Assembly (NCBI GenBank): GCA_001769535.1
Contig: MEOH01000011.1
Span: 1-64,000, forward strand
From: Bacteroidetes bacterium GWF2_38_335
Lineage (GTDB): Bacteria; Bacteroidota; Bacteroidia; Bacteroidales; GWF2-38-335
Length of the DNA stretch: 64,000 nucleotides
Direction of reading: 5' to 3'
Shown: piece by piece, positions 22,183 through 55,399 of the stretch
How the letters are laid out: each line of letters starts with the position of its first letter
Numbering within the stretch: the first letter of the stretch is position 1
Notes under the pieces: generated by a model
Told to the model about the DNA's origin: nothing
The model's database searches: none
What the model saw: only the letters and a program-made list of their open reading frames with translations
Program-made: the position numbers and the translations under genes

Positions 22183-22204
22183 CATTTATACCCTCTAAGC
22201 CCCT

Positions 22205-22532
22205 TATTCGTCCAAAACTACAACATCATTATTCGGGACACAACCATCATTCCCGGTGCGTAACTCGACATCGTCGTTCTCTATTTCAGCTTAAAAGACA
22301 CCATCACCATAGAATAAGAAAACCTTGAGGTTAAGCTTTATGCGGTTAATGATACGTTTTTTTGGACTGAACAGAAAGGCGACGCAGTGGTGGTGGAAAA
22401 GGAGGTAGTGGTTGAGATGGTGGCTGGGAAGAAAAACAATGAAACTATTTAAAATATTAATTGGGAAATACTTTTATTTGCATTGATCGGAATTATATTT
22501 GTAATCAAAATGATAATAATAAGTCATTTTGA
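22205..22532 (+). pseudogene. Decayed copy of the spanin-like lipoprotein gene
   Basis: It aligns with the distal two-thirds of the intact gene at 40693-41160, for example the counterparts of DTTIIPG, LKDTI, VNDT, GD.VVVEK and the C-terminal hydrophobic segment ending before TGA at 22530-22532. Three in-frame stops are present: CAA to TAA after IIPG, AAA to TAA near 'TI.E', and one before the TM segment. The 5' part with the lipobox is absent. Just upstream (22182-22202) lie about 20 bp of the 3' end of the zinc-ribbon gene family. The 3' end carries the promoter of the next VCBS gene. Confidence 0.85.
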
Positions 22533-22558
22533 TTCTTTAAGAAAATATTGTAAGTTTG
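22528..22558 (+). promoter_or_regulatory. Promoter of VCBS gene 3, starting at the stop codon of the spanin-like remnant
   Basis: TTTG (22528-22531), a 19-bp spacer, then TAAGTTTG (22551-22558): a full Bacteroidota consensus. It is near-identical to the promoter at 41156-41186 upstream of the paralogous gene. The start codon of the VCBS gene lies 64 bp further on. Confidence 0.75.
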
Positions 22559-22621
22559 ATAGTAATAATAGTGTTTAATATAATTTCATAGAAATAAAGA
22601 GTCTATAAAAAATAAAAAAGT

Positions 22622-25087
22622 ATGAGTAATATGGTAAAATTTCTAACACTTATTTTTACTGTTTCATTATTTTCATTACAAGCCCAAACTACTTTTGGTG
22701 ACCAGAATGTGATAATTGAAAATGGATCTGTCGATAATGCTTACTCAGTCTATTGCGCCGATCTTGATGGTGATGGAGATATGGATGTGCTTTCGGCTTC
22801 ACTTAGTGATGACAAAATAGCATGGTATGAAAACACTGACGGAAATGGAACTTTCGGAGCTCAACAAGTCATTACTACTTCTGCCGATCGTCCTGGCTCA
22901 GTCTATTCAGCGGACATTGACAGCGATGGAGATATGGACGTTCTTTCGGCTTCTTGGAATGATGACAAAATAGCATGGTATGAAAACACTGACGGAAGCG
23001 GAACCTTCGGAGCTCAGCAGGTTATTATTGATACTGCCAGTGTAAGTACCTCAGTTTATTGCGCCGACATTGATGGCGATGGAGATATGGACATCCTTTC
23101 GGCTTCTTGGGGGGACAACAAAATAGCCTGGTATGAAAACACCGATGGAAACGGATCTTTTGGAATTCAGCAAGTTATTACAACTGTTGCTCATGGTGCT
23201 CACTCAGTTTACAGTGTTGACATTGACGGCGATGGTGATATGGATGTGCTTTCGGCTTCTGAGGATGACGACAAAATAGCCTGGTATGAAAATACTGATG
23301 GAAATGGAACTTTCGGAACCCAACAAGTTATTACAACTGATGCCGATTATGCTCATTCAGTTTATGCCTCCGACCTTGATGGAGATGGAGATATGGACGT
23401 GCTTTCGGCTTCTTTTGGTGACGATAAAATAGCATGGTATGAAAACACCGACGGAAACGGAACTTTCGGAGCTCAACAAGTCATTACTACTGCTGCTGGG
23501 GCTATCTCAGTCTATTGCGTCGATCTTGACGGTGATGGTGATTTGGACGTACTTTCTGCATCTGGAGATGACAATAAAATAGCCTGGTATGAAAATACCG
23601 ACGGCCACGGAACTTTCGGAGCTCAACAAGTAATTACTACCATTGCCAATGGTGCTAATTCAGTTTATTCTACTGACCTTGACGGGGATGGTGATATGGA
23701 CGTGCTATCGATTTCATCTTATCTTAGTGATAACAAAATAGCATGGTATGAAAACACCGACGGAAACGGAACTTTCGGAGCTCAACAAGTCATTAATATT
23801 GCTGCTGATGGTGCTTTCTCGGTTTTTTGCGCTGATATTGACAGCGATGGAGATATGGACGTGCTTTCGGCTTCTGAGTTAGATGACAAAATAGCCTGGT
23901 ATGAAAACACTGACGGAAACGGAACTTTCGGAACCCAACAACTTATTACTACTTCTGCTGATTGTGCGAGCTCAGTTTTTTCTGTCGACATTGACAGCGA
24001 TGGAGATGTAGACGTGCTTTCGGCTTCTCAGTTAGACAACAAAATAGCATGGTATGAAAACACCGACGGAAATGGAACTTTTGGAACCCAACAACTTATT
24101 ACTACTGATGCTTATGCTTTCTCAGTCTATTGCGCCGATCTTGACGGCGATGAAGATATGGATGTGCTTTCTGTTTCTGTGGATCATAAAATAGCATGGT
24201 ATGAAAACACCGACGGCCACGGAACTTTTGGAACCCAACAAGTCATTACTGCTGCTACTAATGCTTCCTCAGTCTATTGTGCTGATCTTGATGGTGATGG
24301 CGATATGGATGTTATTTCGGCTTCTGAGTATGAGGCCAAAATAGCATGGTATGAAAACACCGATGGAAACGGAACTTTCGGAGTTCAACAAGTAATTACA
24401 ACTGCTGTCGATGATGCTTGCTCAGTCTGTTCAGCCGACCTTGATGGCGATGGAGATATGGACGTGCTTTCGGCTTCTTCTGAAGATGACAAAATAGCAT
24501 GGTATGAAAACACTGACGGAAATGGAACTTTTGGAACTCAACAAATCATTACCACTGCTGCCAATGGAGCAAAATCAGTTTTTTCTGCAGATCTTGATGG
24601 TGATGGAGATATGGACGTGGTTTCTGCTTCTTGGAATGATGACAAAATAGCATGGTATGAAAACACTGACGGAAGCGGAACCTTCGGAACCCAACAAGTT
24701 ATTACTACTGATGCCGATTATGCTCATTCAGTTTATGCCTCCGACCTTGATGGAGATGGAGATATGGACGTTCTTTCGGCTTCTTTTGATGACGATAAAA
24801 TAGCATGGTACGAAAATTTGCTCGAAACAGAAATTGAAACTATTCAACCCTGCAGCATTTCAATATATCCCAACCCAACCAACGGAATATTGATGATTGA
24901 AAACACTCAGTGGCCAATTTCAGGTTATAAAATATCAGACATTCTCGGGAATATCATCATTGAGTCTCAGCAAATCACAAACAAAACATCCAGTCAGATT
25001 GATATGTCCGGAATGCATAACGGTATATACCTGATAAACATTCAGACAAAAGAAGGAAATATCACAGAAAAGGTCATAAAGGAATAA
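22622..25087 (+). CDS. VCBS/FG-GAP 14-repeat T9SS-secreted protein (3)
   Basis: 821 aa. Signal peptide ends SLQAQ. There are 14 VCBS units of about 51 aa with very low divergence between units (most read NTDGNGTFGTQQVITT), which points to recent homogenisation. For example, the units around 23331-23460 and 24706-24815 are almost the same at DNA level. The type A sorting domain begins near residue 745 (IYPNPTNGIL) and ends ITEKVIKE, closer to that of gene 1 (TEKIIKE) than to gene 2, so tails and repeat bodies have been mixed. It is transcribed from the promoter at 22528-22558, which it shares in design with the gene at 41246. Predicted surface-exposed or released Ca-binding double propeller; ligand unknown. 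Confidence 0.92.
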   Translation: MSNMVKFLTLIFTVSLFSLQAQTTFGDQNVIIENGSVDNAYSVYCADLDGDGDMDVLSASLSDDKIAWYENTDGNGTFGAQQVITTSADRPGSVYSADIDSDGDMDVLSASWNDDKIAWYENTDGSGTFGAQQVIIDTASVSTSVYCADIDGDGDMDILSASWGDNKIAWYENTDGNGSFGIQQVITTVAHGAHSVYSVDIDGDGDMDVLSASEDDDKIAWYENTDGNGTFGTQQVITTDADYAHSVYASDLDGDGDMDVLSASFGDDKIAWYENTDGNGTFGAQQVITTAAGAISVYCVDLDGDGDLDVLSASGDDNKIAWYENTDGHGTFGAQQVITTIANGANSVYSTDLDGDGDMDVLSISSYLSDNKIAWYENTDGNGTFGAQQVINIAADGAFSVFCADIDSDGDMDVLSASELDDKIAWYENTDGNGTFGTQQLITTSADCASSVFSVDIDSDGDVDVLSASQLDNKIAWYENTDGNGTFGTQQLITTDAYAFSVYCADLDGDEDMDVLSVSVDHKIAWYENTDGHGTFGTQQVITAATNASSVYCADLDGDGDMDVISASEYEAKIAWYENTDGNGTFGVQQVITTAVDDACSVCSADLDGDGDMDVLSASSEDDKIAWYENTDGNGTFGTQQIITTAANGAKSVFSADLDGDGDMDVVSASWNDDKIAWYENTDGSGTFGTQQVITTDADYAHSVYASDLDGDGDMDVLSASFDDDKIAWYENLLETEIETIQPCSISIYPNPTNGILMIENTQWPISGYKISDILGNIIIESQQITNKTSSQIDMSGMHNGIYLINIQTKEGNITEKVIKE

Positions 25088-25130
25088 TCTTTCTTTCAGT
25101 ATGTTGTTATAAAAAAGTAAAACCTTGTTA

Positions 25131-25202
25131 CCCCCAAGGTCTGAAAGACCGTTCTGTATCAACATCGGGTGAAGCAAAGCGAAGCGCCGCGTAACCCGAT
25201 GA
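25131..25202. repeat. 72-bp structured repeat, copy 1
   Basis: It starts CCCCCAAGGTCTGAAAGACC and ends GTAACCCGATGA. It contains two potential hairpins: GGTCT/AGACC, and CATCGGGT paired with ACCCGATG around a GC-rich AAGCGAAGCGCCGCG core. It differs from copy 2 at only a few bases. Confidence 0.8.
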
Positions 25203-25221
25203 CCCCCGCCATCCGACAAAA

Positions 25222-36096: not shown

Positions 36097-36276
36097 CAAT
36101 ATCCGTGGTACACGCTCAAAGAACTTGCAAAGTATTACAATGTTAATACCCGCACGTTATACTCCTGGCTGGTTCCCATCCGGCAACAATTGTTCGACAT
36201 GAACCCCATTAGAAAAAAAAGAATCCGGATTTTAATTCCAAAACAGGTGAAGCTGATTAGGGAGTTTTTGGGGTAG
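36097..36276 (+). pseudogene. Truncated small helix-turn-helix gene, copy 1
   Basis: The frame reads YTLKELAKYYNVNTRTLYSW (a helix-turn-helix), then LVPIRQQLF and RKKRIRILIPKQVKLIREFL and stops at TAG 36274-36276. There is no start codon: the frame abuts the stop codon of the GloVer-repeat gene (36094). The pattern resembles a small DNA-binding protein of mobile elements and is related to the frame at 63478-63660. Its last 120 bp are repeated at 38557-38676. Confidence 0.7.
36157..36276 (+). repeat. 120-bp direct repeat, copy 1
   Basis: From TTATACTCCTGGCTGG to GGGGTAG, it matches 38557-38676 with about six differences. The two copies flank the minus-strand gene 36334-38436 and have the same orientation. 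Confidence 0.85.
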
Positions 36277-36284
36277 GGTGTAAA

Positions 36285-36315
36285 TAAAAAAGCCGATAAA
36301 TAATCGGCTTTTTTA
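36285..36315. terminator. Bidirectional intrinsic terminator
   Basis: The stem AGCCGAT / ATCGGCT (36291-36309) with a 5-bp loop is preceded by six A and followed by six T, so it works on both strands. It separates the plus-strand GloVer-repeat gene and the HTH remnant from the convergent gene at 36334. Confidence 0.85.
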
Positions 36316-36333
36316 ATAAGATGCTGCTATTTG

Positions 36334-38556: not shown

Positions 38557-38676
38557 TTATACTCCTGGCTGGTCCCCATCCGGCAACAATTGTTCGACAT
38601 GAACTCCATCAGAAAAAAAAGAATCAGGATTTTAATACCTAAACAGGTGAAGCTGATTAGGGAGTTTTTGGGGTAG
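38557..38676 (+). repeat. 120-bp direct repeat, copy 2 (HTH gene fragment)
   Basis: This is the second copy of the 3' part of the small HTH gene. It lacks the helix-turn-helix half that is still readable in copy 1, and again ends at a TAG (38674-38676). It is followed by unrelated sequence leading to the gene at 38784. Confidence 0.85.
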
Positions 38677-38783
38677 GGAAAGAAATAATCAGGAATTAAT
38701 TTTTGGTTTTTTTGGAAATTTTTGAGAATTATCGTACTATTGAACTATTGTTAGAGCAAGTTTAGTCCTTTAATAAACTGACT

Positions 38784-40301: not shown

Positions 40302-40434
40302 ATAAAAGGGATTTCAAAAGAATTGTAAAGGAGAAAATAAAAGAAAATATTTCTCTTTAACCATCAATTACTCCCATTACCCCACATAAAAGAAACCACC
40401 AATTTTCCCCATCATAATATTGCAGTAGATTTTA

Positions 40435-40641
40435 TTGCAATATATGTTCAAACTTAAGACCATAATCATCATAGTAATAGTGATTCTCACTCTGGGGATT
40501 GCTTATAAATATTACCGGAAACTCAAGGATACTGAGAAACTTAAGCTCGGCGAGACTTCTCTGAAACCGGTTAAAGAAATCAAGGATTTTAATGACATTG
40601 TGGATGTCCTGAAAAACGGACTGAGACTCACCGGCTTTTAA
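40435..40641 (+). CDS. Small single-TM protein upstream of the spanin-like gene
   Basis: 68 aa (possible start also at 40444). One strongly hydrophobic segment (IIIIVIVILTLGIAYKYY, about 9-28) is followed by a Lys-rich cytoplasmic-type tail with VKEIKDFNDIVDVLKNGLRL. It lies 51 bp upstream of the lipobox gene and may be co-transcribed. Size and topology would allow a holin-like or accessory role, but nothing in the sequence proves that. I do not recognise a family. Confidence 0.6.
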   Translation: MQYMFKLKTIIIIVIVILTLGIAYKYYRKLKDTEKLKLGETSLKPVKEIKDFNDIVDVLKNGLRLTGF

Positions 40642-40692
40642 TCTGAAGAAAGTAGCAAAATCATAGAATTTAACAAACTAAAAAATAAAGCT

Positions 40693-41160
40693 ATGAAAAA
40701 GAACAGCCCAAATATTTATATGATAATCAGGATTTCTATCCTGATTTTTTGGAATATAGCTGGAATCCTCATCCTTGTTTCATGCAGTCCGCAAAAACGA
40801 CTCAACCGGCTCCTGACTCTCCATCCCGAATTAGTTCAAAATGACCCGATCAGGATCCGGGACACAACCATCATCCCCGGTGTGCAACTCGACACAGTCG
40901 TTCTATATTCAGCTTTAAAAGACACCATCACAATAGAAAAAGAAAACCTTCAGGTGAAACTTTTTGCGGTGAATGACACGGTTTATTTATTGGCTGAGAC
41001 GAAAGGGGATACTGTTGTGGTGGAGAAGGAGATTGTGGTGGAGAGGGTGATTAGGAAAAAAAACAATGAAACTTTTAAAGAATTTAATTGGATAATAATA
41101 ATATTTGCATTTATCGGAATTATACTTGTAATTAAAAGGATAATAAATAAGTCATTTTGA
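40693..41160 (+). CDS. Lipoprotein with C-terminal TM, spanin-like (phage-type)
   Basis: 155 aa. An N-terminal signal with lipobox ILVSC (Cys31) is followed by PQKRLNRLL.LHPELVQND, a periplasmic part rich in predicted beta strands (DTTIIPG, LDTVVLYSALKDTITI, VKLFAVNDTVYL, GDTVVVEKEIVVERV) and a C-terminal TM segment (about 128-150) with a basic tail. Lipid anchor at one end and inner-membrane TM at the other is the layout of unimolecular spanins, phage proteins that join outer and inner membranes during lysis; this is inference from topology. 'HPELV..DT' lipoproteins are familiar from Bacteroidota phage-like regions. It is intact here, while three other copies in the window are broken. The promoter of the next gene starts at its stop codon. 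Confidence 0.75.
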   Translation: MKKNSPNIYMIIRISILIFWNIAGILILVSCSPQKRLNRLLTLHPELVQNDPIRIRDTTIIPGVQLDTVVLYSALKDTITIEKENLQVKLFAVNDTVYLLAETKGDTVVVEKEIVVERVIRKKNNETFKEFNWIIIIFAFIGIILVIKRIINKSF

Positions 41161-41186
41161 TTTTTTAAGAAAATATTGTAAGTTTG
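41156..41186 (+). promoter_or_regulatory. Promoter of VCBS gene 4, overlapping the stop codon of the spanin-like gene
   Basis: TTTG (41156-41159) overlaps the TGA stop (41158-41160). A spacer of exactly 19 bp is followed by TAAGTTTG (41179-41186). The VCBS ATG lies 60 bp downstream. The same arrangement exists at 22528-22558. Confidence 0.78.
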
Positions 41187-41245
41187 ATACTAATTAATAG
41201 CGTTTAAAATAATTTCCTGGATATAGAGTCTTTAAATAAAAAAGT

Positions 41246-43864: not shown

Positions 43865-43884
43865 AAATAGAAACATATAATTAT

Positions 43885-43914
43885 AAAAAGCACTGCCAAA
43901 AAGCAGTGCTTTTT
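43885..43914 (+). terminator. Intrinsic terminator after VCBS gene 4
   Basis: Perfect stem AAAAAGCACTGC / GCAGTGCTTTTT with a CAAAAA loop, 20 bp after the stop codon. Same element as at 22151-22182. Confidence 0.9.
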
Positions 43915-44073
43915 CATTTATACCCCATAAGATCCTTAATCTCCTTAACATTTTTATCTTTCATGATCTGGTCCATTCGGGCCGGTGGGTTCCATCCCTT
44001 TTTCCTTTGCCTGGTTAAATTCTGAGAGCAACGTTTGCAACACGCAAACGAGCTGCGGCGGTTGCTCTTATGC
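43914..44073 (-). pseudogene. 3' fragment of the zinc-ribbon gene family
   Basis: The minus-strand frame reads SSFACCKRCSQNLTRQRKKG, then WNPPARMDQIMKDKNVKEIK and ends DLMGYK. It corresponds to the C-terminal half of the intact protein at 60286-60621 (ACSSRCCNNL, KKGLNPPARMDVITKEKNVR). The N-terminal half is missing: the frame runs into the spanin-like remnant on the opposite strand. Confidence 0.8.
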
Positions 44074-44452
44074 CGGATTCTGGCCCTCCATCCCGAGCTT
44101 GTCCAAAACGACACTATCAGGATTTAGGACACAACCATTATTCCCGGAGTGAAAATTGAAACATTGGTTTTGTTTTCGCAGTTGAAAGATACTGTCACAA
44201 TTACAAAAGAAAAGCTTCAGGTGAAAATTTATGCTGTTAATGATACGGTTTATGTTTGGGCTGAACAAGAAAATGATACGGTTGTGGTTTACTAAGGAGA
44301 TTGCGGTGGAGAGGGTGGTTCAACATAAAACAAATAATAAATACTTGAAATTAATGAATTTACTTTGGTCTAAGTGGATGAGTTATTTTCTTATTGTTTT
44401 AGTAGCTATTTGTTTGATTAAAAGATTTTTGAAAAATAATAGAAAAGATTGA
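44074..44452 (+). pseudogene. Decayed copy of the spanin-like lipoprotein gene
   Basis: It starts at the counterpart of LHPELVQND. It contains TAG in place of the Arg-Asp junction (AGG ATT TAG GAC), and one extra base near 44290 shifts the VVVEKEIVVERV segment. The last part still encodes a TM segment and ends RKD before TGA 44450-44452. The lipobox part is missing, replaced by the zinc-ribbon fragment on the other strand. It lies upstream of the delta-60-repeat gene. Confidence 0.82.
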
Positions 44453-44593
44453 TAATTCTTTTTTCTTAAGAATTATTGATTTATATTTACATTAAAATCT
44501 CAAAAAAGTATAATTATATAGCTAAAGCAAATATTAAAAAAAGTTTTTTGAGTTTTAGTAGTTTAAAAACAGACCATAAAATCATTACAAAAA
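44453..44593. other. Leader region of the delta-60 operon
   Basis: Contains the weak promoter-like TATATTTA (about 44481-44488), one base from TAnnTTTG, at the same place relative to the remnant as the strong promoters at 22551 and 41179. The matching stretch after 55238 reads the same. No gene. Confidence 0.35.
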
Positions 44594-44599
44594 ATGATT

Positions 44600-47500
44600 A
44601 TGAAAAAACATATTTTTTTTGTTACGATTGTATTTTTTTTACACCTAGCCACTTATGCACAGTGGGGCTCAGTTGATACAACATTTAATCCGGGCGATCA
44701 GGGCTTTGGTTATGGTGATGGAGCAGAGGCAACTGTTCAATCTTCAGTTATTCAAAGTGATGGAAAAATTTTAATAGTTGGTTCCTTTGCGAAATATAAT
44801 GGAACAATAAGTAGAAATATTGCAAGATTATACCCAAATGGTGATATTGATAATACTTTTAATATTGGAAGTGGGGCTAATGGAATAATATATGCATCAG
44901 CAATACAAACAGATGAGAAAATATTAATAGGTGGTGATTTTACTAGTTTTAATGGAACAAGCATTAATCGGATAGCACGATTGAATAGTGATGGAAGTAT
45001 TGATACATCTTTTCATGTTGGAACGGGTATTGATGATTTAATTTTTACAATAAAAATCCAAAACGATGGTAAAATAATTATTGGCGGCGAATTTATTACT
45101 TATAATGGAACAAGTGTAAATCGAATAGTACGTTTAAATAATGATGGGAGTATTGATACTTCTTTTAATATTGGGACAGGAGCAAATAATTATATTAGGG
45201 CCATTGAAATTCAATCAGATGAAAAGATAATTATTGGTGGTGATTTCACAACTTTTAATGGTGCCAATAAATATCGAATTGCTCGATTAAACAGTAATGG
45301 AAGCAATGATGGGACTTTTAACACATTTTCGGGAATGGAAGATCCGGTTTTTGGAATTGCAATTCAATCAGATGGAAAAGTAATTATTGTGGGGGAATTT
45401 GGTTTATTTCAAGGATTTAGCGTAAATGGAATCGTTAGATTAAATACCAATGGAACCAAAGATGTGACATTTAGCACTGGAACTGGATTTAATAATACTG
45501 TTTATTCGCCAGTAATTCAATCAGATGGAAAAATTATCATTGGCGGGGCTTTTTCAAATTACAATGGATATACAAGGAACTATTTGGTCAGATTAAATTC
45601 AAATGGTAGTATAGATTTATCTTTTAATCCAGGGGAAGGGCCAAGTGGATGGATTAGTTCTATTTCTAATTATACAGATGGAAAAATTATTATTACAGGC
45701 GGTTTTGAACTTTATCGTGGAATTGGAAGGCATCATATCGCTTGTTTGAATACAGATAGTAGTTTTGATGAATCATTTAACAAAGGAACAGGAGCAGATA
45801 ACGTGATTATGATTACTAAAATAAATTCTAATGGTAAGGTTTTAATATGTGGCACCTTTAAAAAGTTTAATAATTATGGTAGAAATCAAATTGCTCTTTT
45901 GAATTCAGATGGTACTATAGACACAACTTTCAATCCGGGAACTGGGATTAATGGTAGTATTTGGGATGCTATTTTTCAAAATGATGGAAAAGTTATTGTT
46001 TGTGGAAATTTTTCTGAATATAATGGTATAGCAACAAATAATTTAATTCGAATAAATACAGATGGTTGTATAGATAATTCATTTAATATTGGAACAGGAC
46101 CATCTTCAGGGGTTTATTCATTAGCTATACAAACTGACGGAAAAATTATTATTGGAGGAGGGTTTTCAAGTTTTAATGGAATATCAATAAAAAAAATTGC
46201 AAGATTAAATTCCGATGGAAGTCTTGATAATTCCTTCAACCCCGGAATTGGACCAAATGGAGGGGTTTTTTCAATTGCTATTCAAAATGATGGGAAATAT
46301 ATTATTGGGGGTCAATTTAACACATATGTGTATTCAGATAGAAATTGTATAGCAAGAATTAATATAGACGGAAGCCTTGATGAATCATTCGATCCAGGAA
46401 CAAGTGTAGACAATACAATAGAAACTGTTGAATTACAAAGTGATGGTAAAATTTTAATTGGAGGTTATTTTAATAGCTATAATGGAGTTTCAATTAAAAA
46501 TCTTGCAAGATTGAATTCTGATGGAAGCCTTGATGCCTCATTTTATGTTGGAACAGGAGCAAATAACGGTGTTTTTGAAATTTCTGAACAAACAGATGGT
46601 AAAATTTTAATTGGAGGTGAGTTTACTTATTATAATGGAGTAAATAAAAAATATTTTGTTCGTTTAAACAATGATGGGAGTATTGATAATTTATTCATTA
46701 TGGGATCAGGTCCAAGTTATAAAATTAGAGCAATTGAAATTCAAAATGATGGAAAGATTATTATTGGAGGTGAATTTGTAAGTTACAACGGTGTTGGAAG
46801 AAACAGAATTGCCAGATTATTGGCTTGCTCAGAATATTATTCATCTGAATCAATTGATATTTGTGAAGGAGAGTCCTATAATTGGCATGGAATTGATTAT
46901 GAAACAACGGGAATTTATTATGACACTATAACAAATTTTAATGGATGCGAAAGTGAATTTCAATTATTATTAAATATTAATTATAAATATTTATATTCAG
47001 ATACTGCCAGTATTTGTGGAGGAGAGTCCTTTAATTGGCGTGGTATTGAATATAATACTTCTGGAGTGTATTATGATAGTTTAATAACTAATAAAGGATG
47101 CGATAGCATTTTTATGTTAGTACTCATTGTTAATCCAAGTTACTCATTTTCAGAAGCGCAAAGCATTTGTGTTGGTGATGTTTATACATGGCAAGGTATG
47201 GATTATACCTCTACAGGAGTTTATTACAATAATCTTACTTCTGCTTTTGGTTGTGATAGTCTTTTTCAATTGGATTTAACAACTTATTTTATTGATACAA
47301 GTGTTTCATATTCAGGAAACAATCTTTATTCAAATTTCATTGCAGATTCTTACCAATGGGTTGATTGTGACGATGGATATTCTTCAATTCCAGGAGCTCA
47401 TTATCCAATATTTTCTGCCTCAGAAAATGGAAATTATGCTATAATTTTAACAATGGGGTCATGTTCAGATACTTCATCATGCATTCCTGTTACATCAGTA

Positions 47501-47752
47501 GAGGTTGCTTCTAATCAATTTGAAAACGAAATTTCTATATATCCTGTTCCATTTTCTGACGAAATAACAATTGAAGATGAAAATGATTTTAATCAATGGA
47601 GTTTTAAGATATTAAATGCATTAGGACAAGTAGTTTATAATGGAAATGTCATAAATAAAACTATAGTACAGACTGAAAAATTCGCTTCCGGGGTTTATTT
47701 TGTAAGATTTGAAAATGACAATTCGTTTTTTTATAAAAAGATAATAAAGTAA
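44600..47752 (+). CDS. Delta-60-repeat (14 units) protein with Cys modules, T9SS-secreted
   Basis: The start is either 44594 or 44600; the second gives MKKHIFFVTIVFFLHLATYAQ, a standard signal peptide. The first 740 residues contain 14 units of about 50 aa of the form 'A.Q.DGKIIIGG.F..YNG....RIARLN.DGSIDTSFN.GTG', the delta-60 repeat; 14 fits two seven-bladed propellers. Three Cys units follow (about 742-900; 'ICEGESYNWHGIDYETTGIYYD', 'GCDS.F.L.L.VN'), then the YQWVDC domain shared with the protein at 32525 and a type A sorting domain (about 977-1050; IYPVPFSDEI). It is the first gene of a likely operon with the three following secreted-protein genes (gaps of 15, 11 and 20 bp). Confidence 0.9.
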   Translation: MKKHIFFVTIVFFLHLATYAQWGSVDTTFNPGDQGFGYGDGAEATVQSSVIQSDGKILIVGSFAKYNGTISRNIARLYPNGDIDNTFNIGSGANGIIYASAIQTDEKILIGGDFTSFNGTSINRIARLNSDGSIDTSFHVGTGIDDLIFTIKIQNDGKIIIGGEFITYNGTSVNRIVRLNNDGSIDTSFNIGTGANNYIRAIEIQSDEKIIIGGDFTTFNGANKYRIARLNSNGSNDGTFNTFSGMEDPVFGIAIQSDGKVIIVGEFGLFQGFSVNGIVRLNTNGTKDVTFSTGTGFNNTVYSPVIQSDGKIIIGGAFSNYNGYTRNYLVRLNSNGSIDLSFNPGEGPSGWISSISNYTDGKIIITGGFELYRGIGRHHIACLNTDSSFDESFNKGTGADNVIMITKINSNGKVLICGTFKKFNNYGRNQIALLNSDGTIDTTFNPGTGINGSIWDAIFQNDGKVIVCGNFSEYNGIATNNLIRINTDGCIDNSFNIGTGPSSGVYSLAIQTDGKIIIGGGFSSFNGISIKKIARLNSDGSLDNSFNPGIGPNGGVFSIAIQNDGKYIIGGQFNTYVYSDRNCIARINIDGSLDESFDPGTSVDNTIETVELQSDGKILIGGYFNSYNGVSIKNLARLNSDGSLDASFYVGTGANNGVFEISEQTDGKILIGGEFTYYNGVNKKYFVRLNNDGSIDNLFIMGSGPSYKIRAIEIQNDGKIIIGGEFVSYNGVGRNRIARLLACSEYYSSESIDICEGESYNWHGIDYETTGIYYDTITNFNGCESEFQLLLNINYKYLYSDTASICGGESFNWRGIEYNTSGVYYDSLITNKGCDSIFMLVLIVNPSYSFSEAQSICVGDVYTWQGMDYTSTGVYYNNLTSAFGCDSLFQLDLTTYFIDTSVSYSGNNLYSNFIADSYQWVDCDDGYSSIPGAHYPIFSASENGNYAIILTMGSCSDTSSCIPVTSVEVASNQFENEISIYPVPFSDEITIEDENDFNQWSFKILNALGQVVYNGNVINKTIVQTEKFASGVYFVRFENDNSFFYKKIIK

Positions 47753-47767: not shown

Positions 47768-49660
47768 ATGTTTAGGTATAAATCTATATTAATTGTAATT
47801 TATGTGTTTCTAAATTTATTTGCTGAATCTCAGCCAATGAATGGAAACTATACAATAGGAGGAACATCCCCTGATTTTACAGATTTTACAACTGCTGTAA
47901 ATTATTTAAATAATAATGGAGTAGACGGTCCAGTGATTTTCAATGTAAGACCTGGTACTTACGTTGAACATTTTATAATAAATTTTGTGACAGGAAGTTC
48001 GTCAGTTAATACGATTGCCTTTCAATCTGAGGAAATGGATAGTAACTCTGTAATATTGCAATATGCAACAACATCAACTGAAAACTATGTTATTTATCTT
48101 GCAGGAGCTCAGTTTATTAATTTTAATCATTTAACAATTAAAACAACATCAACATCTAACTATCAAATTGTCATATCGGTTTCAAATGGATCAAGTAATA
48201 ATATTTTTAGTAATAATGTAATCAGAAGTAACGTCATTAGTGGAATTTCATCTGCCGCCTTAATTTTAATTAACGGAGGAGGTGATAATAATTCTATTAC
48301 TGAGAATCTATTTGTTAATGGTGGATATCAGATAAAAATAATAGGAATGGCTTCAGATTACTGCATAAATAATAATATAATTAGAAATGTTTTTAGTGGG
48401 ACTGCGGGGTATTCAATCTATGCTCAACTAGAACAAGACATTAGTATTTCAGGCAATAATATAAATTGTAATTTGTATAATTCTTCTTCAGGAATTAGAT
48501 TCGTTAATTGTGGCGGTTTGATATATTTAGAAAAAAATATTTTATGCTTTGGTGGTACTTTAATAAATATTGTGGAATTTAACGATTGTAATGGTTCATT
48601 AATTAATCCAATAATTTTCAAGAATAATTTTGTTTCAGCAACATCAGGTTCATACATTAGATGTATAGTGCTTTACAATGTTTCTTTTGTAAAAATTATA
48701 AATAATAGTTTTAACTTTAATGTTTGGGATAGTTACATAATTGAGTTTGCTATTGGCCTTTCGAATATAGATCTTTTTAATAATATTTTTAATTGGACAC
48801 ATGGAGGTAGTTTTTATGCATCATCCAATTCTATTGATACGTCTCAAATTCACTCAGATTATAATGTTTTCTATTCTTCTGGAAATATTAAGTTTTTGGA
48901 TGATGACAATTATATGACATTTGATGAATGGAGATTCTTAAAAGGACAGGATAACAATAGTTTGATTACTAATCCTTTTTATATTAGCAATACGGATTTA
49001 CACGTAAACAACGCCATTGAAATAATGGGGAAAGCACTTCCAATAATAGAAGTTAACGAAGATATTGATGGAGATTTAAGGGATGTTTTTCATCCTGATA
49101 TTGGTGCAGATGAATTTGAAATAAATTATGCTACTTTTCATGATATAGAATTAATCGAAATTTTATATCCTGATACTAATATTTATTTGCCCATTGACTC
49201 AATTAAAATTAGAGTAAAAAACAATTCGATTTTTGACATTGATTCATTCAATGTTAAATTTTTGTTGTTTGATTTATTACAATATGATGGGAGCGTAATT
49301 AAAAATATTCATCCGGGTGACACTGTTACTGTAGATTTGGGACCTTTTGATTATATTAAAAATACATATTACGAATTTGAGTTTGAAATATCAAATCCTA
49401 ATGGAAATATAGATAATTATTTTGAAAATAATGAAATGGATACGTGGTATTACTATTTAAATGATGTTGAGATTTTTAAAAGAACTAATGATTGCAATGA
49501 TGAGATAGAACTATTTATTAAAAATTTTCCAAAAGCATCTGTTTTATGGTCGAATGGTTCAACTGACAATAGAATAATTGTTACCTCTCCTGGATCTTAT
49601 AGTGTTATTGTAACCGGAGATAATGGTAATCAGGTGACGGATACAATAATTGTATATTAA
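47768..49660 (+). CDS. Secreted right-handed beta-helix protein without a sorting domain
   Basis: 630 aa. A signal peptide (ends AESQ) is followed by NGNYTIGG.SPDFTDFTTAV and then 'NGV.GPVIFNVRPGTYVEH', the entry of a right-handed parallel beta-helix. Asn-rich coils (NNIFSNNVIRSN, CINNNIIRNVF) run to about residue 400, with the closing 'DIDGD.RD..HPDIGADEFE' near 435. A CARDB-like beta-sandwich (about 455-565) and a short Ig-like end (WSNGSTDN..., GSYSVIVTGDNGNQ) follow. Unlike its neighbours it has no YPNP-type sorting domain. The last strand runs directly to the stop, 11 bp before the next gene, so it may rely on a partner or have lost its tail. No pectate-lyase catalytic residues are evident. 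Confidence 0.85.
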   Translation: MFRYKSILIVIYVFLNLFAESQPMNGNYTIGGTSPDFTDFTTAVNYLNNNGVDGPVIFNVRPGTYVEHFIINFVTGSSSVNTIAFQSEEMDSNSVILQYATTSTENYVIYLAGAQFINFNHLTIKTTSTSNYQIVISVSNGSSNNIFSNNVIRSNVISGISSAALILINGGGDNNSITENLFVNGGYQIKIIGMASDYCINNNIIRNVFSGTAGYSIYAQLEQDISISGNNINCNLYNSSSGIRFVNCGGLIYLEKNILCFGGTLINIVEFNDCNGSLINPIIFKNNFVSATSGSYIRCIVLYNVSFVKIINNSFNFNVWDSYIIEFAIGLSNIDLFNNIFNWTHGGSFYASSNSIDTSQIHSDYNVFYSSGNIKFLDDDNYMTFDEWRFLKGQDNNSLITNPFYISNTDLHVNNAIEIMGKALPIIEVNEDIDGDLRDVFHPDIGADEFEINYATFHDIELIEILYPDTNIYLPIDSIKIRVKNNSIFDIDSFNVKFLLFDLLQYDGSVIKNIHPGDTVTVDLGPFDYIKNTYYEFEFEISNPNGNIDNYFENNEMDTWYYYLNDVEIFKRTNDCNDEIELFIKNFPKASVLWSNGSTDNRIIVTSPGSYSVIVTGDNGNQVTDTIIVY

Positions 49661-49671
49661 AGATCATAATT

Positions 49672-52428
49672 ATGAAATATATTTTAAAAATAGCTATTTT
49701 ATTAATTAACTTTCCACTATTTGGACAGTTGATTGAATTTCAATATTTTTCAGATACAAGTTATACGCAGATTGGTATTGATAAAATGTATAAATACATT
49801 GAAGTTAATGATGGAGTTTTAGTATCTGGATATAAAATTATTGCTGATGAGAAAAAACCGTTGATTTTGAAATTAAACAAAAACGGTGAAGTAATATGGT
49901 CAACTTTGGAAAATTTTGAGTCAAATATTTCCAATGTTGTACAATTTTATTTTAGTTTATTTAATGATGGATATATTTATGGTTGTTCGTATGATTCAAG
50001 TGAAAAAACCTTTTGGAAAATTAATGAAGAGACAGGTATTGTACAATGGATTAAAACTTATTCCTTAGATTTAATATCTACAATAAATTTTCGTGATTAT
50101 GATTCAACTAAATTCCTAATTTTATATAGTACATATGATTATATTTATTTAGCAACATTAAGTAAGGTTGATGGTTCAATTTTATCCATAAAAAATCTTG
50201 GGGGATTTTCTTCAAAAATAAGCTTAACAACTGATAATAATAAAAATATTTATACAACAATTGATGATCAGTTTACCAAATATAATGGAAATAATACTAA
50301 TCAAATAATATGGCAAAGAAAATACATTGGACCTTATTCTGGTATTTCAACAGAAATGGAAGCAATTCACTTTGCGTACATTGATAATTATGATGATATT
50401 TATATATTTGGGCAGAACTTTGAGGAAAATGGATTAATAAAAAAAATTGATATTTCAACTGGAATGGAAATATGGAGTGTTGAAGCATGTAGTCAAGAAG
50501 TTGCCGTTCAAAAAGTAATTGATAAAAACAATAAATTATATGTAATTTATAGACAAATTTCTTTTGGGGCATCTCCACAATTTTTCAGGACCTCTAAGGT
50601 TGATAAGTCATCTGGGAATTTGGATTGGGCTTCAATTCAAGATATTGAGGCACTAGGGACACCTGTTGGATCTCATAGTGGTAATCAGCAAGCAGCCATA
50701 TCTCTTGATGTTGACTGCTTTGGCGATATTTATCAAGCTGGTTTTTATGGAGATAGTAATAATGGAACTGAAGCATGGGGTATAAATAAACTGAACGGAA
50801 TTAATGGATTAGAAGTGTTTGATTTAACAATAACTCAGGATTCTGCTGAATTTGATGATTTAAGTATTGGGTTAGCATCTTGTGTTTTTGAAAACTCCCC
50901 TGTTTTTTTAGGAAATTTAGAGTATATCCCCGGAACAGTAAAGCCATTATATGTTACGGTTGAACCAGAAAGCGGCGAAGTAGTTCAAAGATTTTTTATT
51001 GGGACAAGAAAGTATCAAGAAATTTCAAAAACGCTTGATATAATAAATAAAAATGAAAAAGTATATGTACTGAAGCAGGAAGGTAACCATGTTGTGGCGG
51101 AGAAATATGATGAAAATGGAAATTTATTATGGAAAAAAGTTTTCACAGAATCAAAAAAATTAATTGGTGGGCAAATTAATGTAACAGAAAATAACGTTTA
51201 TATTTCTTTAAGCAGGGCTGTTCCTGATACTATTGAGCCATTTTACACTGAAAACATTGATAAAATTTGTTTATTCAAATTAAATAAATCAGATGGGAAT
51301 ATTATTGGAACCGATTCAATAAATTTTTCTCCTTCACCTATGATTCCGTTTGAATTGGAATCAGATGAAGATACTTCATATTTATTTTTTAAGGATGAAA
51401 TATTCATTTATTATACAAAATGGAGTGATGATGGATTTTCATCGGTTGAGATTCTTGAAGCAGCGGGCAGTAATAATGGATACGATGGGAAAATTAATAT
51501 TGTAAAAAATGATACTAATTCATTGTATGTTTTAGGAAGGAATAGGATTTATAAGGTAGTGAAAGAGTCACTTGAAAAGGAAACTGTTTTCATTTATCCT
51601 GGTGAAAGAGAATATTATGATTTTATCCAAATTGATGATTCTATTTATCTCTCAGGAAATGATATTTTTGGAACACAAATAATTACTTCAATTGATTTTT
51701 CTGAAATGACTCAAAATTGGGAAATATCATATAGTGGTAATGGTAAATTATACAAGTCTGTTCGTGATTCTGAAAATAATCTTTATGTAATTGGTACAGT
51801 TAATAATATAATGAATATTTATAAGATTTCATCTGAAAACGGAGAATTAATATGGGGTTATTTCGAAGATTCCTTAATTAACCCAAATACAGTCCCATTA
51901 GATATGGAATTAATTGAAGAGAACAATTGTCTGGCAGTTGGAAGTGCAAAATACAATTCTGATGAAAACTCAGATGTTGTCATGACTTTTTTAAATTTGC
52001 AAGGAGATTTATTAAATGAATATACCAAAACAGATGAGTTGGAAAATAAAAGTCAGGCTTATGTAATTGAAAAAGTTGATACTTTTTTTTGGATTGGTGG
52101 AGCTTATAATAGAGTAACGTTTTCAAAAGAAGGATTTATATATCAAATACATTTAGATTATAGTGATGATTCAACTGTTAATATTGTAAATCCAGACCAT
52201 GGAGAAATATCACTTTTCCCAAATCCTTCAGAAGGTATAATAAATGTAAAGTATGAGAAAGGAGAAGTTTTAAATTATGAAATTTTTGATTTAATTGGAA
52301 GGAAAAGAATAGAGGGTAGATTTATTAATAATAGAACAATGGATATTTCATGTTTAAGCGCGGGTGTTTACATTTTAAAAATTAGATTTCAGAATAAAAC
52401 AGAAGTGTTTAAAGTGGTAAAAAAATGA
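49672..52428 (+). CDS. PQQ-like propeller T9SS-secreted protein
   Basis: 918 aa. Signal peptide ends LFGQ. Repeated strands of the form 'D..Y..G..........KI....G...W' (for example NKNIYTTIDDQFTKYNGNNT, NLYVIGTVNNIMNIYKIS...GELIWGY) suggest PQQ-like or WD-type blades over residues 20-800; the units are too degenerate to count. The type A sorting domain starts near 845 (LFPNPSEGII) and ends EVFKVVKK. It is the third gene of the operon 44600-54635. No cofactor-binding residues can be claimed. Confidence 0.82.
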   Translation: MKYILKIAILLINFPLFGQLIEFQYFSDTSYTQIGIDKMYKYIEVNDGVLVSGYKIIADEKKPLILKLNKNGEVIWSTLENFESNISNVVQFYFSLFNDGYIYGCSYDSSEKTFWKINEETGIVQWIKTYSLDLISTINFRDYDSTKFLILYSTYDYIYLATLSKVDGSILSIKNLGGFSSKISLTTDNNKNIYTTIDDQFTKYNGNNTNQIIWQRKYIGPYSGISTEMEAIHFAYIDNYDDIYIFGQNFEENGLIKKIDISTGMEIWSVEACSQEVAVQKVIDKNNKLYVIYRQISFGASPQFFRTSKVDKSSGNLDWASIQDIEALGTPVGSHSGNQQAAISLDVDCFGDIYQAGFYGDSNNGTEAWGINKLNGINGLEVFDLTITQDSAEFDDLSIGLASCVFENSPVFLGNLEYIPGTVKPLYVTVEPESGEVVQRFFIGTRKYQEISKTLDIINKNEKVYVLKQEGNHVVAEKYDENGNLLWKKVFTESKKLIGGQINVTENNVYISLSRAVPDTIEPFYTENIDKICLFKLNKSDGNIIGTDSINFSPSPMIPFELESDEDTSYLFFKDEIFIYYTKWSDDGFSSVEILEAAGSNNGYDGKINIVKNDTNSLYVLGRNRIYKVVKESLEKETVFIYPGEREYYDFIQIDDSIYLSGNDIFGTQIITSIDFSEMTQNWEISYSGNGKLYKSVRDSENNLYVIGTVNNIMNIYKISSENGELIWGYFEDSLINPNTVPLDMELIEENNCLAVGSAKYNSDENSDVVMTFLNLQGDLLNEYTKTDELENKSQAYVIEKVDTFFWIGGAYNRVTFSKEGFIYQIHLDYSDDSTVNIVNPDHGEISLFPNPSEGIINVKYEKGEVLNYEIFDLIGRKRIEGRFINNRTMDISCLSAGVYILKIRFQNKTEVFKVVKK

Positions 52429-52448
52429 ATTAATCTGATATTAAATTA

Positions 52449-54635
52449 TTGAAATTTGTGAAAATTAAATGTATAATTTTTTTATTTTTTACGCTTGTTC
52501 AAGTAATAAGCTTAAAATCACAGGAAAATTGTGAGGCTTTGTTAATAGGAGATACAGTAAATCTTTCCGTTTCAGGTTATAATGGTTCAATTCAATGGCA
52601 GCAAAGTAGTGATTGCATTATTTGGACAGATATTGTGGGTTTTGTTAATGAAAATGAACAATATATAGTAAATTATCCGGTTGGAGAAAAATATATTAGG
52701 GTAAAAATCACAAATTCATTAATATGCGAATATTCTTCGTGGTTCGGAGATATTTTAAAATTAAAGGTAATAAACTCAACAAATGACCTACAAGTTGGAG
52801 ATCGATTTCATGGGGGAATAGTTTTTTATATTAACGGTTTAGGTGAAGGAGTGATTGCTCCTCAATCAGATCAATATTCAGAAGTCCAATGGGGTTGTTT
52901 TGGAACAAATATTTCAGGGGCATCAAGTACTTCTAATGGCTTTTCAAATACAAACGCAATAGTAACAGGGTGTGCTACAAGGCCAATAGCTGCAAGTATT
53001 TGTGATGAATTGAATTTATTTGATTATTCTGATTGGTACTTACCTGCTATAGATCAAATGGAGGAATTGTATATTCAAAAAGAAATAATTGGAGGTTTTA
53101 CAAGTGAATTATATTGGTCAAGTTCAGAGGTTAGTGCCAATAATGCTTGGAATAAAAATATTTTAACGGGAGAAAGTAGTCCATTATGGAATAAAAATCA
53201 AAGTTACTGTGTAAGATGTATCAGATCATTTAATGGTACTGAAGAAAATAAAAAGACTTTTTTTAATTGTATTGTTGAAGATCCTCAACCACTTGAAATT
53301 ACTGCACAACCAACTTCTATGGTGGTTTGCAAAGGCGATAATGCAAATTTTTTTGTTGTTATAAGTAATTCGTTAGCTACTTTTCAATGGATAAAAGATG
53401 GAGAACCACTTTTAGATTCTATTAATAGTTATATTTCAATTTCTGATGCTTCAGCTATTGATGAAGGCATATATAAATGTGAGATAACTGATTTGTGTTC
53501 TAATAGCGTGACTGAGACAATAAATGCTGAATTAAATGTAATATATTTAGAAGTTGATGCAGGCGATCCATATGGACTATGCACAAGCGACACTTATTTA
53601 ACTTTGCATGCAAATACTATATCAAGTCATCCATTTTTTTCTGGTGAAATTAATTATTTATGGGCACCATCATATGCATTAAGTTCAACAACAATTTCAA
53701 ATCCTATTGCAAGTCCTTCTGTTTCGATTGAGTATAAAGTTTATATAAATGATGAAGTTGGATGCTCTTCATTTGATTCTGTATTTATTAATAAACAAAA
53801 CATCTATAACGATCAACAAATATGTGTGGTTTCATTTGATAAAGAAACAGGAAAAAACAAGATCATGTGGGTGCCTAATACTGAGGTTGGTACAGAAAAA
53901 TATATAATAAAAAAACAAATTTCACCTTTTAACTTTTATTCGTTAGGTGAAGTGTTATCTGGGGAATCACCAATATTTATTGATTACACATCTAATCCAA
54001 GTTTAGGTAGTAGCATTTATAAATTATCTGTTATTGATACTTGTGGAACTGAATCAAATATTGTTTTTTGTGAATATCATAAAACAATTCATCTTGATTT
54101 GACAATGGAAGGTAGTGACGTTGCTTGTTTGACATGGGAACCATACGAGGTTCAATATGATTCATTTATTCCAGAAAAATATTATTTGTATAGAGGGTCA
54201 AGTCCAGAGAGTATTGAATTAACGGATTCAATAGATGCGTTATCAAATTTCTTCTGTTATACAGAAGTTGATGGCTTGAATTATTTTATGGTTGCAACAG
54301 CAAGAGAAGATTGTGCTGGTGAGGAGGGTTCGAGGTACTTATCATTTTCAAATATTGTAGATAATTCTGAATACGTTGGAGATAATGAAATAATAATTGA
54401 CAGTGAATTTTCAGTGTTTCCAAACCCTGCAGATGATATTTTAAACATTAGATCTACAAAGATAAATATCGATTTTAGTTTTAATATTTATGATGCTATG
54501 GGCATTGAAGTATTTGTTAAAGCGGAATTAGTGAATGAGATTATGAAAATTGATATTTCAAATCTGAAGCCGGGTGTTTATTTTATTGAAATAAATGGAG
54601 AAAAAACATCAAGAAAGAAAGTCGTTATTTATTAA
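52449..54635 (+). CDS. DUF1566/Ig-domain T9SS-secreted protein, non-ATG start
   Basis: 728 aa. No ATG lies in frame before the signal peptide (KFVKIKCIIFLFFTLVQVIS), so translation must begin at TTG 52449 or GTG 52458, rare choices for this phylum. The segment at about 113-261 (GDRFHGGIVFYI, WYLPAIDQMEELY, YWSSSE, CVRCIRSF) is a DUF1566/Lcl-type domain related to C-type-lectin-like folds. An Ig domain at about 279-365 (QPTSMVVCKGDNANF, FQWIKDGEPL, DEGIYKCEI) and fibronectin-like segments (460-650) follow. The type A sorting domain starts near 654 (VFPNPADDIL). It is the last gene of the operon. The domain set suggests surface binding. Confidence 0.85.
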   Translation: MKFVKIKCIIFLFFTLVQVISLKSQENCEALLIGDTVNLSVSGYNGSIQWQQSSDCIIWTDIVGFVNENEQYIVNYPVGEKYIRVKITNSLICEYSSWFGDILKLKVINSTNDLQVGDRFHGGIVFYINGLGEGVIAPQSDQYSEVQWGCFGTNISGASSTSNGFSNTNAIVTGCATRPIAASICDELNLFDYSDWYLPAIDQMEELYIQKEIIGGFTSELYWSSSEVSANNAWNKNILTGESSPLWNKNQSYCVRCIRSFNGTEENKKTFFNCIVEDPQPLEITAQPTSMVVCKGDNANFFVVISNSLATFQWIKDGEPLLDSINSYISISDASAIDEGIYKCEITDLCSNSVTETINAELNVIYLEVDAGDPYGLCTSDTYLTLHANTISSHPFFSGEINYLWAPSYALSSTTISNPIASPSVSIEYKVYINDEVGCSSFDSVFINKQNIYNDQQICVVSFDKETGKNKIMWVPNTEVGTEKYIIKKQISPFNFYSLGEVLSGESPIFIDYTSNPSLGSSIYKLSVIDTCGTESNIVFCEYHKTIHLDLTMEGSDVACLTWEPYEVQYDSFIPEKYYLYRGSSPESIELTDSIDALSNFFCYTEVDGLNYFMVATAREDCAGEEGSRYLSFSNIVDNSEYVGDNEIIIDSEFSVFPNPADDILNIRSTKINIDFSFNIYDAMGIEVFVKAELVNEIMKIDISNLKPGVYFIEINGEKTSRKKVVIY

Positions 54636-54700
54636 TGTTATTGTATTGATTAATAATTAAGAATTAAAGGTAAATAATGGGGGTTGATTAACTCCATTTT

Positions 54701-54860
54701 TCATTTATACCCCCTAAGATCCTTAATCTCCTTTACATTTTTATCTTTCATAATTTGGTCCATTCGGGCCGGTGGGTTCCATCCTTTTTTTCTTTGCCTG
54801 GTTAAATTCTGAGAGCAACGTTTGCAGCAGGCAAACGAACTTCGGCGGTTGCTCTCATGC
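54701..54860 (-). pseudogene. 3' fragment of the zinc-ribbon gene family
   Basis: Same fragment and same junction as 43914-44073, ending DLRGYK before the TGA at 54703-54701. The minus-strand frame has CCKRCSQNL, RQRKKGWNPPARMDQIM and KNVKEIKD. Shared borders show that the composite with the spanin-like sequence was formed once and then copied. Confidence 0.8.
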
Positions 54861-55238
54861 CAGATTCTGGCCCTCCATCCCGAGCTTGTTCAAAACGACA
54901 CCATCAGGATCCAGGACACGACCATCATTCCCGGAGTGAAAATTGACACATTGGTTCTGTTTTCGCAGTTGAAAGATACCATCACAATTACAAAAAAAAA
55001 GCTGCAAGTGAAGCTTTTTGCTGTTAATGATACGGTTTATTTGTGGGCTGAGCAAAAGGGGGATACCGTGGTGGTGGAGAAGGAGGTTGTGGTGGAGAGG
55101 GTGGTTTTACCTAAAACTAATAGTATATTTTTTGAATTAATGAAATTGCAATGGTTTAAAGAGATAAGTTATTTTATTATTGTATTAGTAGCTATTTATT
55201 TGATTAAAAGATTATTGAAAAATTATAGAAAAGATTGA
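54861..55238 (+). pseudogene. 5'-truncated spanin-like gene, frame still open
   Basis: From LALHPELVQND to the C-terminal TM and KNYRKD the frame has no stop (IIPGVKIDTLVLFSQLKDTI, VKLFAVNDTVYLW, GDTVVVEKEVVVERVV, YFIIVLVAIYLIKRLL). An ATG at 54822 in the zinc-ribbon-derived part would give a 138-aa chimera, but the signal peptide and a proper lipobox are missing, so the protein could not be lipid-anchored. I treat it as a pseudogene that is younger than those at 22205 and 44074. It precedes the largest VCBS gene. Confidence 0.78.
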
Positions 55239-55399
55239 TAATTATTTTTTCTTATGAATTATTGGTTTATATTTACATTTATATTATAAAATTAAAAGTT
55301 ACTTTTAATTTGAAGTTTTGAAATCAATTGATTAATTTTATTTTTTCAAAAATTCTTTTTATAAATAAAGATTAGCTCTTAACAAAAATTTTATGTCAA
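55239..55399. other. Leader region of VCBS gene 5
   Basis: The first 40 bp match the stretch after 44452 (…GATAATT, TTATATTTACATT), then diverge. No full promoter consensus; TATATTTA near 55269 is the best candidate. Confidence 0.35.

Follow-up and report, generated by a model that had tools for sequence, protein, structure and literature searches.

Why should one small spanin-like gene, whole or in ruins, stand time and again just ahead of a large gene whose product is marked for the type IX secretion system (T9SS)? The question is raised by the genome of Bacteroidetes bacterium GWF2_38_335, in which we analyzed the first 64,000 nucleotides of contig MEOH01000011.1 (C11:1-64000, hereafter the window; our handles for genomes, contigs, and loci begin with G, C, and L). 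In an integrating element, T9SS genes occupy one fixed position, behind the spanin-like gene g18, and decayed copies of this element keep them. We consider it quite probable that the window holds an array of proviruses from a single family, decayed but with their T9SS cargo kept.

A repeat search of the window recovered a 247-nt family (D20) with copies at 22182, 40806 (the reference), 44073, and 54860; the other three share 65, 69, and 80% of their letters with the reference. Searched against the whole genome by tblastn, the 155-amino-acid (aa) g18 protein found five places, all on C11 and all on the plus strand; a sixth row, on C26, was discarded as noise (E 0.08). Two of the five places are intact: 40693 (open reading frame [ORF] 40693-41160, or 40654-41160 with its leader, recognized by topology and by a blastn match of 78% to C11:198499-198900) and 198538, outside the window, with 63% aa identity. 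The other three are damaged. The match at 22120 (remnant 22206-22524, tblastn and blastn) has four in-frame TAA codons, and that at 44068 (remnant 44073-44452, from mid-gene, matching the intact copy at 91.5% over 248 bp by blastn) has one in-frame TAG. At 54861 (remnant 54860-55238, blastn 86%) the match begins at residue 39 and has no internal stop, the first 38 residues being gone and the N-terminal lipoprotein signal missing. Large genes follow the four window copies at 22622, 41246, 44594/44600, and 55400, always in the same orientation and at a spacing of about 85 to 165 bp, and each has Por_Secre_tail (PF18962) above the cut-off. Repeat search, tblastn, and PF18962 bear out the starting point of the earlier note, one intact and three damaged copies just ahead of T9SS genes. 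Its claim that the likeness between the copies near 22205 and 40693 runs on into promoter and signal peptide holds by blastn (22206-22696 versus 40830-41320, 82% over 497 bp). Nor are the genome's g18 copies scattered without regard to cargo: all five precede secreted genes. In a g18 tree the five own-genome copies group together (95/100) and most remaining forks are weak; the copy at 44073 looks mosaic, with its middle nearest the intact copy and its 3' part common with the copy at 54860, and the tree therefore gives no clean history.

What surrounds these copies is more telling, and it had escaped the earlier note: pieces of g23 and g01, two other genes of the intact element, are joined to them, and remnants of a helix-turn-helix (HTH) gene lie at 36103 and 38557. 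With junctions placed by blastn against the intact element on C11, each of the three damaged g18 copies is fused to a piece of g23. At 43865-44071 (minus strand) the g23 3' part and downstream region (88% to C11:203443-203651) are cut off at the scar, and at 54697-54858 (minus strand) a g23 3' part (92% to C11:203490-203651) is cut at the same place. At both junctions, 44071/44073 and 54858/54865, g23 ends at the same base (C11:203651) and g18 resumes from inside the gene, and the stretches 43910-44493 and 54697-55279 are 88% identical straight across the g23'|g18' junction. The simplest account of the 44073 and 54860 scars would be that they go back to a single deletion, later copied by duplication or gene conversion. 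Merely ~32 bp of g23, its last, are left ahead of g18 at 22178-22209 (minus strand; blastn 87.5% to 54697-54728). The intact window copy has a junction of another kind (g01'|g18, 40638/40654): the g01 upstream region and the first 195 bp of g01 (40335-40638, plus strand, blastn 87% to C11:188742-189045) are joined to the leader and the whole of g18, so that about 9.45 kb (g01 to g17) was deleted there. These scars uphold the earlier suggestion that a phage part has decayed.

Read from 36103 rightward, the order begins with a remnant of the region of the 60-aa HTH gene, a left-slot marker (36103-36348, plus strand; tblastn 64%, and 92% DNA identity with the intact element over 242 bp), and a left-slot T9SS gene on the minus strand (36334-38436, Por_Secre_tail 1.7e-13). 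A second HTH-region remnant (38557-38677, plus strand, DNA 97% over 121 bp) and a second left-slot T9SS gene (38784-40301, plus strand, 1.5e-12) follow. Then come g01'|g18, a T9SS gene, the first g23'|g18', four secreted genes, the second g23'|g18', a T9SS gene, and a near-complete g23 that closes the array (60286-60634, minus strand; tblastn 57%, query 6-115 of 116). A g18 remnant between T9SS genes, with T9SS cargo after it, recurs in G398 (L125), so the scar process has been at work in other genomes too. The contig G393:C140 holds two right ends in one orientation (loci L129 and L131, the L131 set being recognized by its resemblance to the L129 set), and elements in tandem are a natural substrate for such deletions.

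The intact g18 outside the window, at C11:198538-199008, lies 134 kb beyond it and is the last of 18 plus-strand genes, g01 to g18, that form a block of ~10 kb (C11:188851-199008). Among them are g02 (transglutaminase-like), g04 (213 aa), g14 (peptidoglycan-binding), g15 (glucosaminidase), and g16 (RadC-like). Behind g18 stand a 149-aa ORF, a lipoprotein-like ORF, two T9SS genes, g21 and g22 (Por_Secre_tail 2e-11 and 4.6e-10), and the convergent g23, a 116-aa zinc-ribbon-like gene at 203494-203844 on the minus strand. To the left of the block lie two T9SS genes (minus strand), the 60-aa HTH gene, an RNase_H_2 gene, and defense genes, and further left a BT4734/PriCT_2/VapE primase-helicase. The whole order is thus a 347-aa-type gene, an HTH gene, the primase-helicase, defense genes, RNase_H_2 (minus), an HTH gene, the left slot, g01 to g18, the right slot, and g23 (minus). 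C11 ends 0.6 kb past g23, and C20 begins with ArdC (minus), a 154-aa gene, and an integrase (minus) that adjoins tRNA-Ser(gct) and is a 65% homologue of the L129 integrase; C20 is probably the continuation of C11. A second, partial element lies at the end of contig C8.

Several observations on this element stand on their own. Its left part (C11:164033-183037, L016) is dense in defense genes: AbiEi, two AbiEii, a type I restriction-modification (RM) system, PDC-S13, the SIR2-like PDC-S21, and a DRT2 reverse transcriptase. On C20 (570-4145, L145) three consecutive ORFs, tyrosine recombinase-like by eye, split ArdC; we take this insertion to resemble a RIT-type element. C26 ends with sequence similar to the ArdC-splitting insertion, just after a second ArdC.

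Elements of the same build occur elsewhere. A g02 alignment found 35 loci among genome contigs, the first eleven (L072 to L082) in Bacteroidota and most others weak, part-protein matches across many phyla. Six of these loci (L072, L073, L074, L075, L077, and L080) have the same block order with g18 last in each; g15 is unmatched in five of the six, g17 likewise in five, and g04 is broken in L073. In all six the ORF after g18 opens with a signal-peptide-like segment. Wherever the sequence reaches, the same HTH, RNase_H_2, primase-helicase, ArdC, and integrase genes surround the relatives' blocks (primase-helicase, ArdC, and tyrosine integrase by Pfam, the last in L129), and the L129 integrase adjoins tRNA-Ser(gct), as on C20. 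Across the host's taxonomic order, g02 has matches in 32 of 393 genomes (the host among them), a few of these perhaps due to a common domain alone. In the phylum, a g04 profile hit 7 of 395 genomes, the host again among them, and g04 was found in all six genomes of these elements. A wider family with g02 and g04 homologues (L062, L065, L067, L069, L070, L138, and L139) retains g08 and g13 in most members and has different replication and lysis genes.

Because 14 of the 15 large window ORFs scanned between 17168 and 59965 carry a T9SS tail, that the next gene is a T9SS gene tells little within the window alone, and the association has to be judged on places outside it. We counted 16 g18 places with readable downstream DNA, own copies included; G395:C164, which has no downstream DNA, was left out, G399:C45 and G053:C45 (L008) are one contig and were counted once, and weak g18 matches in G001 and G015 were not counted (L010, in G015, shows unrelated genes). 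A Por_Secre_tail gene lies in the run behind g18 at 11 of the 16 places and on the very next gene at 7. The 11 comprise the five own copies, G393:C140, G394:C80, G396:C18, G396:C12, G398:C43, and, as a place of its own, the remnant in G398. At two more (G393:C17 and G395:C109) the ORFs bear signals and run into the contig end. In the intact element of this genome and at L119, L125, and L129, elements that we infer to be viral, the cargo is bracketed by g18 and g23; in this genome T9SS genes occupy the left slot as well. The slot is empty in distant members, with ~50 bp from g18 to g23 in L082 and 120 bp, after another gene, in L063; in closer members it is occupied. In L123 (2564-13952 of G396:C12) the right slot holds a T9SS gene and then a large broken gene, YD/RHS-like by eye; a pair of like appearance lies in G394:C80, where the contig stops within the second gene.

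Whether the element is viral turns on its block, which is probably a tailless virion module; from sequences and models this is the best reading rather than a demonstrated one. PHROGs, which we searched with g01 to g18, placed g15 in phage endolysin families and g14 in endolysin families. Labels of tail or head came up only via lysis-type domains, g15 matching a tail protein with an endopeptidase domain (2.9e-19) and g14 an endolysin classed there with head and packaging (1.4e-5), and via a weak tape-measure match of g07 (0.031). Across members the lysis-type genes are of four kinds: Glucosaminidase in the own element and Amidase_2, SLT, and GH108 in distant members. The g07 protein also gave a weak Rz-like match, and L058 has a holin match exactly at the cut-off. 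All nine g18 homologues have, by eye, a hydrophobic start ending in SC before S/T-P; six of nine fit the strict lipobox pattern, and eight of nine have a C-terminal membrane segment above the hydrophobicity threshold, L124 falling below it. No PHROGs match to g18 was found below 0.1; families of unimolecular spanins (u-spanins) are diverse (the plan is defined in PMC6139136). As in u-spanins of the T1 gp11 type described there, g18 has an N-terminal lipoprotein signal and a C-terminal membrane segment, both predicted from sequence, and is the last gene, behind lysis enzymes. Most likely g14 and g15 are lysis enzymes and g18 is a unimolecular spanin; topology and block membership sustain the earlier description of g18 as a spanin-like gene of a phage-like element.

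For the virion itself the evidence comes from g02 and g04. In a search of 26 of the 57 proteins of Salisaeta icosahedral phage 1 (SSIP-1), the g02 profile matches gp34, whose annotation is structural protein, at 6.9e-20; the host of SSIP-1 was formerly placed with Bacteroidetes. SSIP-1 is thus like our element in its transglutaminase-like gp34, with a capsid likeness by fold only, and unlike it in that no other block profile fell below E 0.04 among those 26 proteins and that its virion ATPase (gp40) was not found in the block. Models of two g04 homologues (L074 and L138) have low confidence (mean pLDDT 55.1 and 55.5). Both match BFVD entry I1ZBH9 at probability 1.00, and one of these weak models also matches A0A141HS21-23 at 1.00. 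In VIA the best match of both is an SPV1 virion chain (Z 6.5, 138 aligned, 4.5 A for the first; Z 8.1, 148 aligned, 4.1 A for the second), and the second model also matches virion chains of HHIV-2, SH1, and HCIV-1 at Z 5.5 to 5.9; all these chains we take to be single jelly-roll capsid proteins. Entries I1ZBH9 and I1ZBI0 fit SSIP-1 gp46 and gp47 (211 and 256 aa, adjacent) by length and order only; an assignment of I1ZBH9 to virus SNJ1 was rejected, the SNJ1 record being without a 211- and 256-aa capsid pair. On the tailless-virion reading, g04 would be a jelly-roll capsid protein and g02 a transglutaminase-like virion protein.

A number of results weigh against the provirus reading. Three of the 16 g18 places are without T9SS cargo: in G396:C17 the slot holds an AAA protein, in G395:C127 the g18 remnant is followed by a RhuM-like gene (by eye), and in G399:C45 the slot is empty; within the window, cargo gene 47768 has no T9SS tail. 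The integrase end of the own element lies on another contig, and we infer the continuity. The g04 models are weak, and nucleoplasmin and PHM score about like most virion chains; since unrelated proteins score like virion chains, the one match that stands apart is the SPV1 row, and with the second model alone does it do so clearly. A Foldseek search of the g04 model against the PDB gave no match below 0.001, the g04 profile found nothing among PDB sequences, and PHROGs returned for 14 g04 members two families with one member each (E 0.09). No terminase, portal, or packaging ATPase was recognized in the block by PHROGs (18 of 18 genes), Pfam (11 of 18 genes), or a P-loop scan, which in the own block found only a GLLELGKS-type motif, in g11. 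PHROGs recognize little beyond the lysis and RadC genes. A viral contig collection gave nothing with g18, g02, or g04 (two alignments, A1 and A7); two IMG/VR records (L138 and L139), both distant members, were found in it with the distant-lineage alignment A6. A tblastn search of a phage collection with g04 and a distant g02 gave nothing.

In the strongest rival, the element would be a nonviral integrative element, a defense and surface-gene island in which g01 to g18 builds an envelope machine; the missing terminase, portal, and packaging ATPase would follow, and the heavy defense load (AbiE, type I RM, SIR2-like, DRT2) would suit it. Integrative elements, too, typically have a BT4734/VapE primase, ArdC, and a tyrosine integrase, which counts on the same side. 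An envelope machine, however, accounts poorly for endolysin-type genes whose kind varies from member to member, for u-spanin topology beside a weak Rz-like g07 and a holin match at the cut-off in L058, for a homologue of g02 that SSIP-1 has among its structural proteins, for a virion-protein-like g04 fold, and for two relatives in IMG/VR. We regard this alternative as unlikely.

The cargo genes themselves bear on the next rival. The T9SS-tailed ORFs of the window run from 17168 to 59965, with 47768 the exception, and ORFs 61011 and 61879 also have Por_Secre_tail; counting with these the four T9SS genes of the own intact element (g21, g22, and the two in its left slot), PF18962 exceeds its curated cut-off in 20 of the 21 large ORFs scanned. 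Genes behind g18 have signal-peptide-like starts, judged by hydrophobicity alone rather than by a signal-peptide predictor. The GC content of the right cargo (29.7%) is far below that of the block (42.4%; host stretch, 37.6%), which fits acquired cargo. All the following genes are on the plus strand. At the left of the array, whose edge is marked by an IS66 transposase fragment (16196-16657, minus strand, DDE_Tnp_IS66 1.1e-29), three FG-GAP genes lie at 17168-19645 (Por_Secre_tail 1.2e-13), 19671-22130 (identified by Pfam and sequence comparison), and 22622-25087 (Por_Secre_tail; 3' end unrelated to 41246), and a fourth with FG-GAP repeats lies at 41246-43864 (5.2e-15). The four secreted genes between the two like scars are 44594-47752 (DUF5122 beta-propeller, 5.7e-11), 47768-49660 (630 aa, secreted type with a hydrophobic N terminus, 0 Pfam families), 49672-52428 (8.7e-11), and 52449-54635 (Ig domain, 6.6e-14); 55400-59965 combines FG-GAP and DUF7619 (2e-9). 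Gene 22622 is 86% identical to 41246 upstream and at the gene start and only 50% at the end, whereas 19671 is 89% identical to 41246 at the gene end (last 240 bp) and 74% over the 50 bp beyond, with an unrelated upstream region (54%). A tandem copy of the 40693-43945 unit, with its FG-GAP genes later recombining with others, would leave this combination of 5' and 3' likeness. The FG-GAP T9SS genes in 17168-25087 and 41246-43864 look mosaic, as if recombined within 153-bp repeats.

The earlier note had read the repeated gene and its surroundings as a self-spreading cassette, a small phage-like gene, promoter, and secreted gene copied as one block. Part of this stands: the units at 44074 and 54861 share one junction and 584 bp at 88%, those at 22205 and 40693 have gene, promoter, and signal peptide in common (22206-22696/40830-41320), and 19671, 22622, and 41246 resemble products of tandem duplication. 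What does not stand is the unit itself, which is a remnant of a much larger provirus-like element, and the picture of a small phage gene traveling together with its promoter fails on the pieces of g23 and g01 that adjoin the copies. Joined to every copy are fragments of further genes from that element, g18 is the last block gene in the intact element and its relatives, no g18 copy lies off C11 in the own genome, and the cargo behind the two same-junction scars differs (DUF5122 at 44594 versus FG-GAP/DUF7619 at 55400). A cassette as such is very improbable. Least credible of all is coincidence, the idea that T9SS genes are dense enough here for one to follow any repeat whatever: the tail is present in 14 of 15 large ORFs, and the 5.27-Mb genome has at least 150 tail matches scored among 386 candidates (a floor), yet the fifth copy and 6 of 11 places in other genomes have same-orientation T9SS cargo behind g18, and by a rough estimate tails mark only a few per cent of genes (150 to 386, or roughly 3 to 8% assuming one gene per kb).

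We therefore return to the reading of the window as decayed proviruses and propose how it might have formed. The virus would integrate beside tRNA-Ser; the lysogen would express the slot genes, and the host T9SS would put their products on the surface, where they would perhaps alter adhesion or exclude other phages. Tandem infections and deletions would leave the cargo to the host: proviruses in tandem would lose the DNA between g23 of one and g18 of the next, or the DNA from g01 to g18, and cargo would stay behind g23'|g18' or g01'|g18 scars. Scars and repeat-rich cargo genes would then duplicate and recombine. On this proposal the elements would form particles and be transferred, the cargo would be exported, and host or virus would benefit. 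A far wider claim, possible and in our view doubtful, is that tailless temperate Bacteroidales viruses with a T9SS slot behind a lysis gene, and a defense-gene slot besides, seed T9SS arrays and are a main route by which T9SS genes are gained and diversified. Arrays would then arise as viruses infected repeatedly in tandem and their viral parts were lost, with scars and repeats serving as homology for reshuffling.

Cargo of this kind on a phage is not new. Cryophage, a circular 76-kb Bacteroidetes phage with tail-fiber variants (Bellas et al. 2020, PMC7468147), has three variable genes that encode T9SS cargo, described in that paper as a unique occurrence. The earlier word "undescribed" was accordingly too strong, phage-encoded variable T9SS cargo having been reported already. 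Set beside that account, our elements appear to belong to a different, probably tailless lineage, have a fixed slot and long runs of T9SS genes, and in decaying leave scarred chromosomal arrays; phage-borne T9SS cargo is thus known, and what sets the present case apart is the other lineage, the dedicated slot, the long cargo runs, and the chromosomal scars. Tailless, lipid-containing phages of Flavobacterium include PhiCjT23 and FLiP, the former temperate and with related prophages; PhiCjT23-like phages have 6 to 8 kb of single-stranded DNA, dif-site integration, and a double jelly-roll capsid (PMC9719478). The elements described here are, in contrast, roughly 40 to 45 kb (own, G393, and IMG/VR records), with a tyrosine integrase beside a tRNA gene and, going by the models, a possible single jelly roll. 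Other membrane-containing tailless phages are reviewed in PMC6356626. We found no report of this element family in the open-access literature searched.

Genomes like this one have 150 or more T9SS cargo genes, and for some of these a provirus family whose cargo slot is fixed offers a concrete source. The origin of such genes becomes testable, through scars beside them and through turnover of the slot against the viral block. It also brings into view a group of probably tailless proviruses, hardly recognized by PHROGs, that carry both defense and host-surface genes. Lysogeny with such a provirus may change both what its host resists and what that host displays outside.

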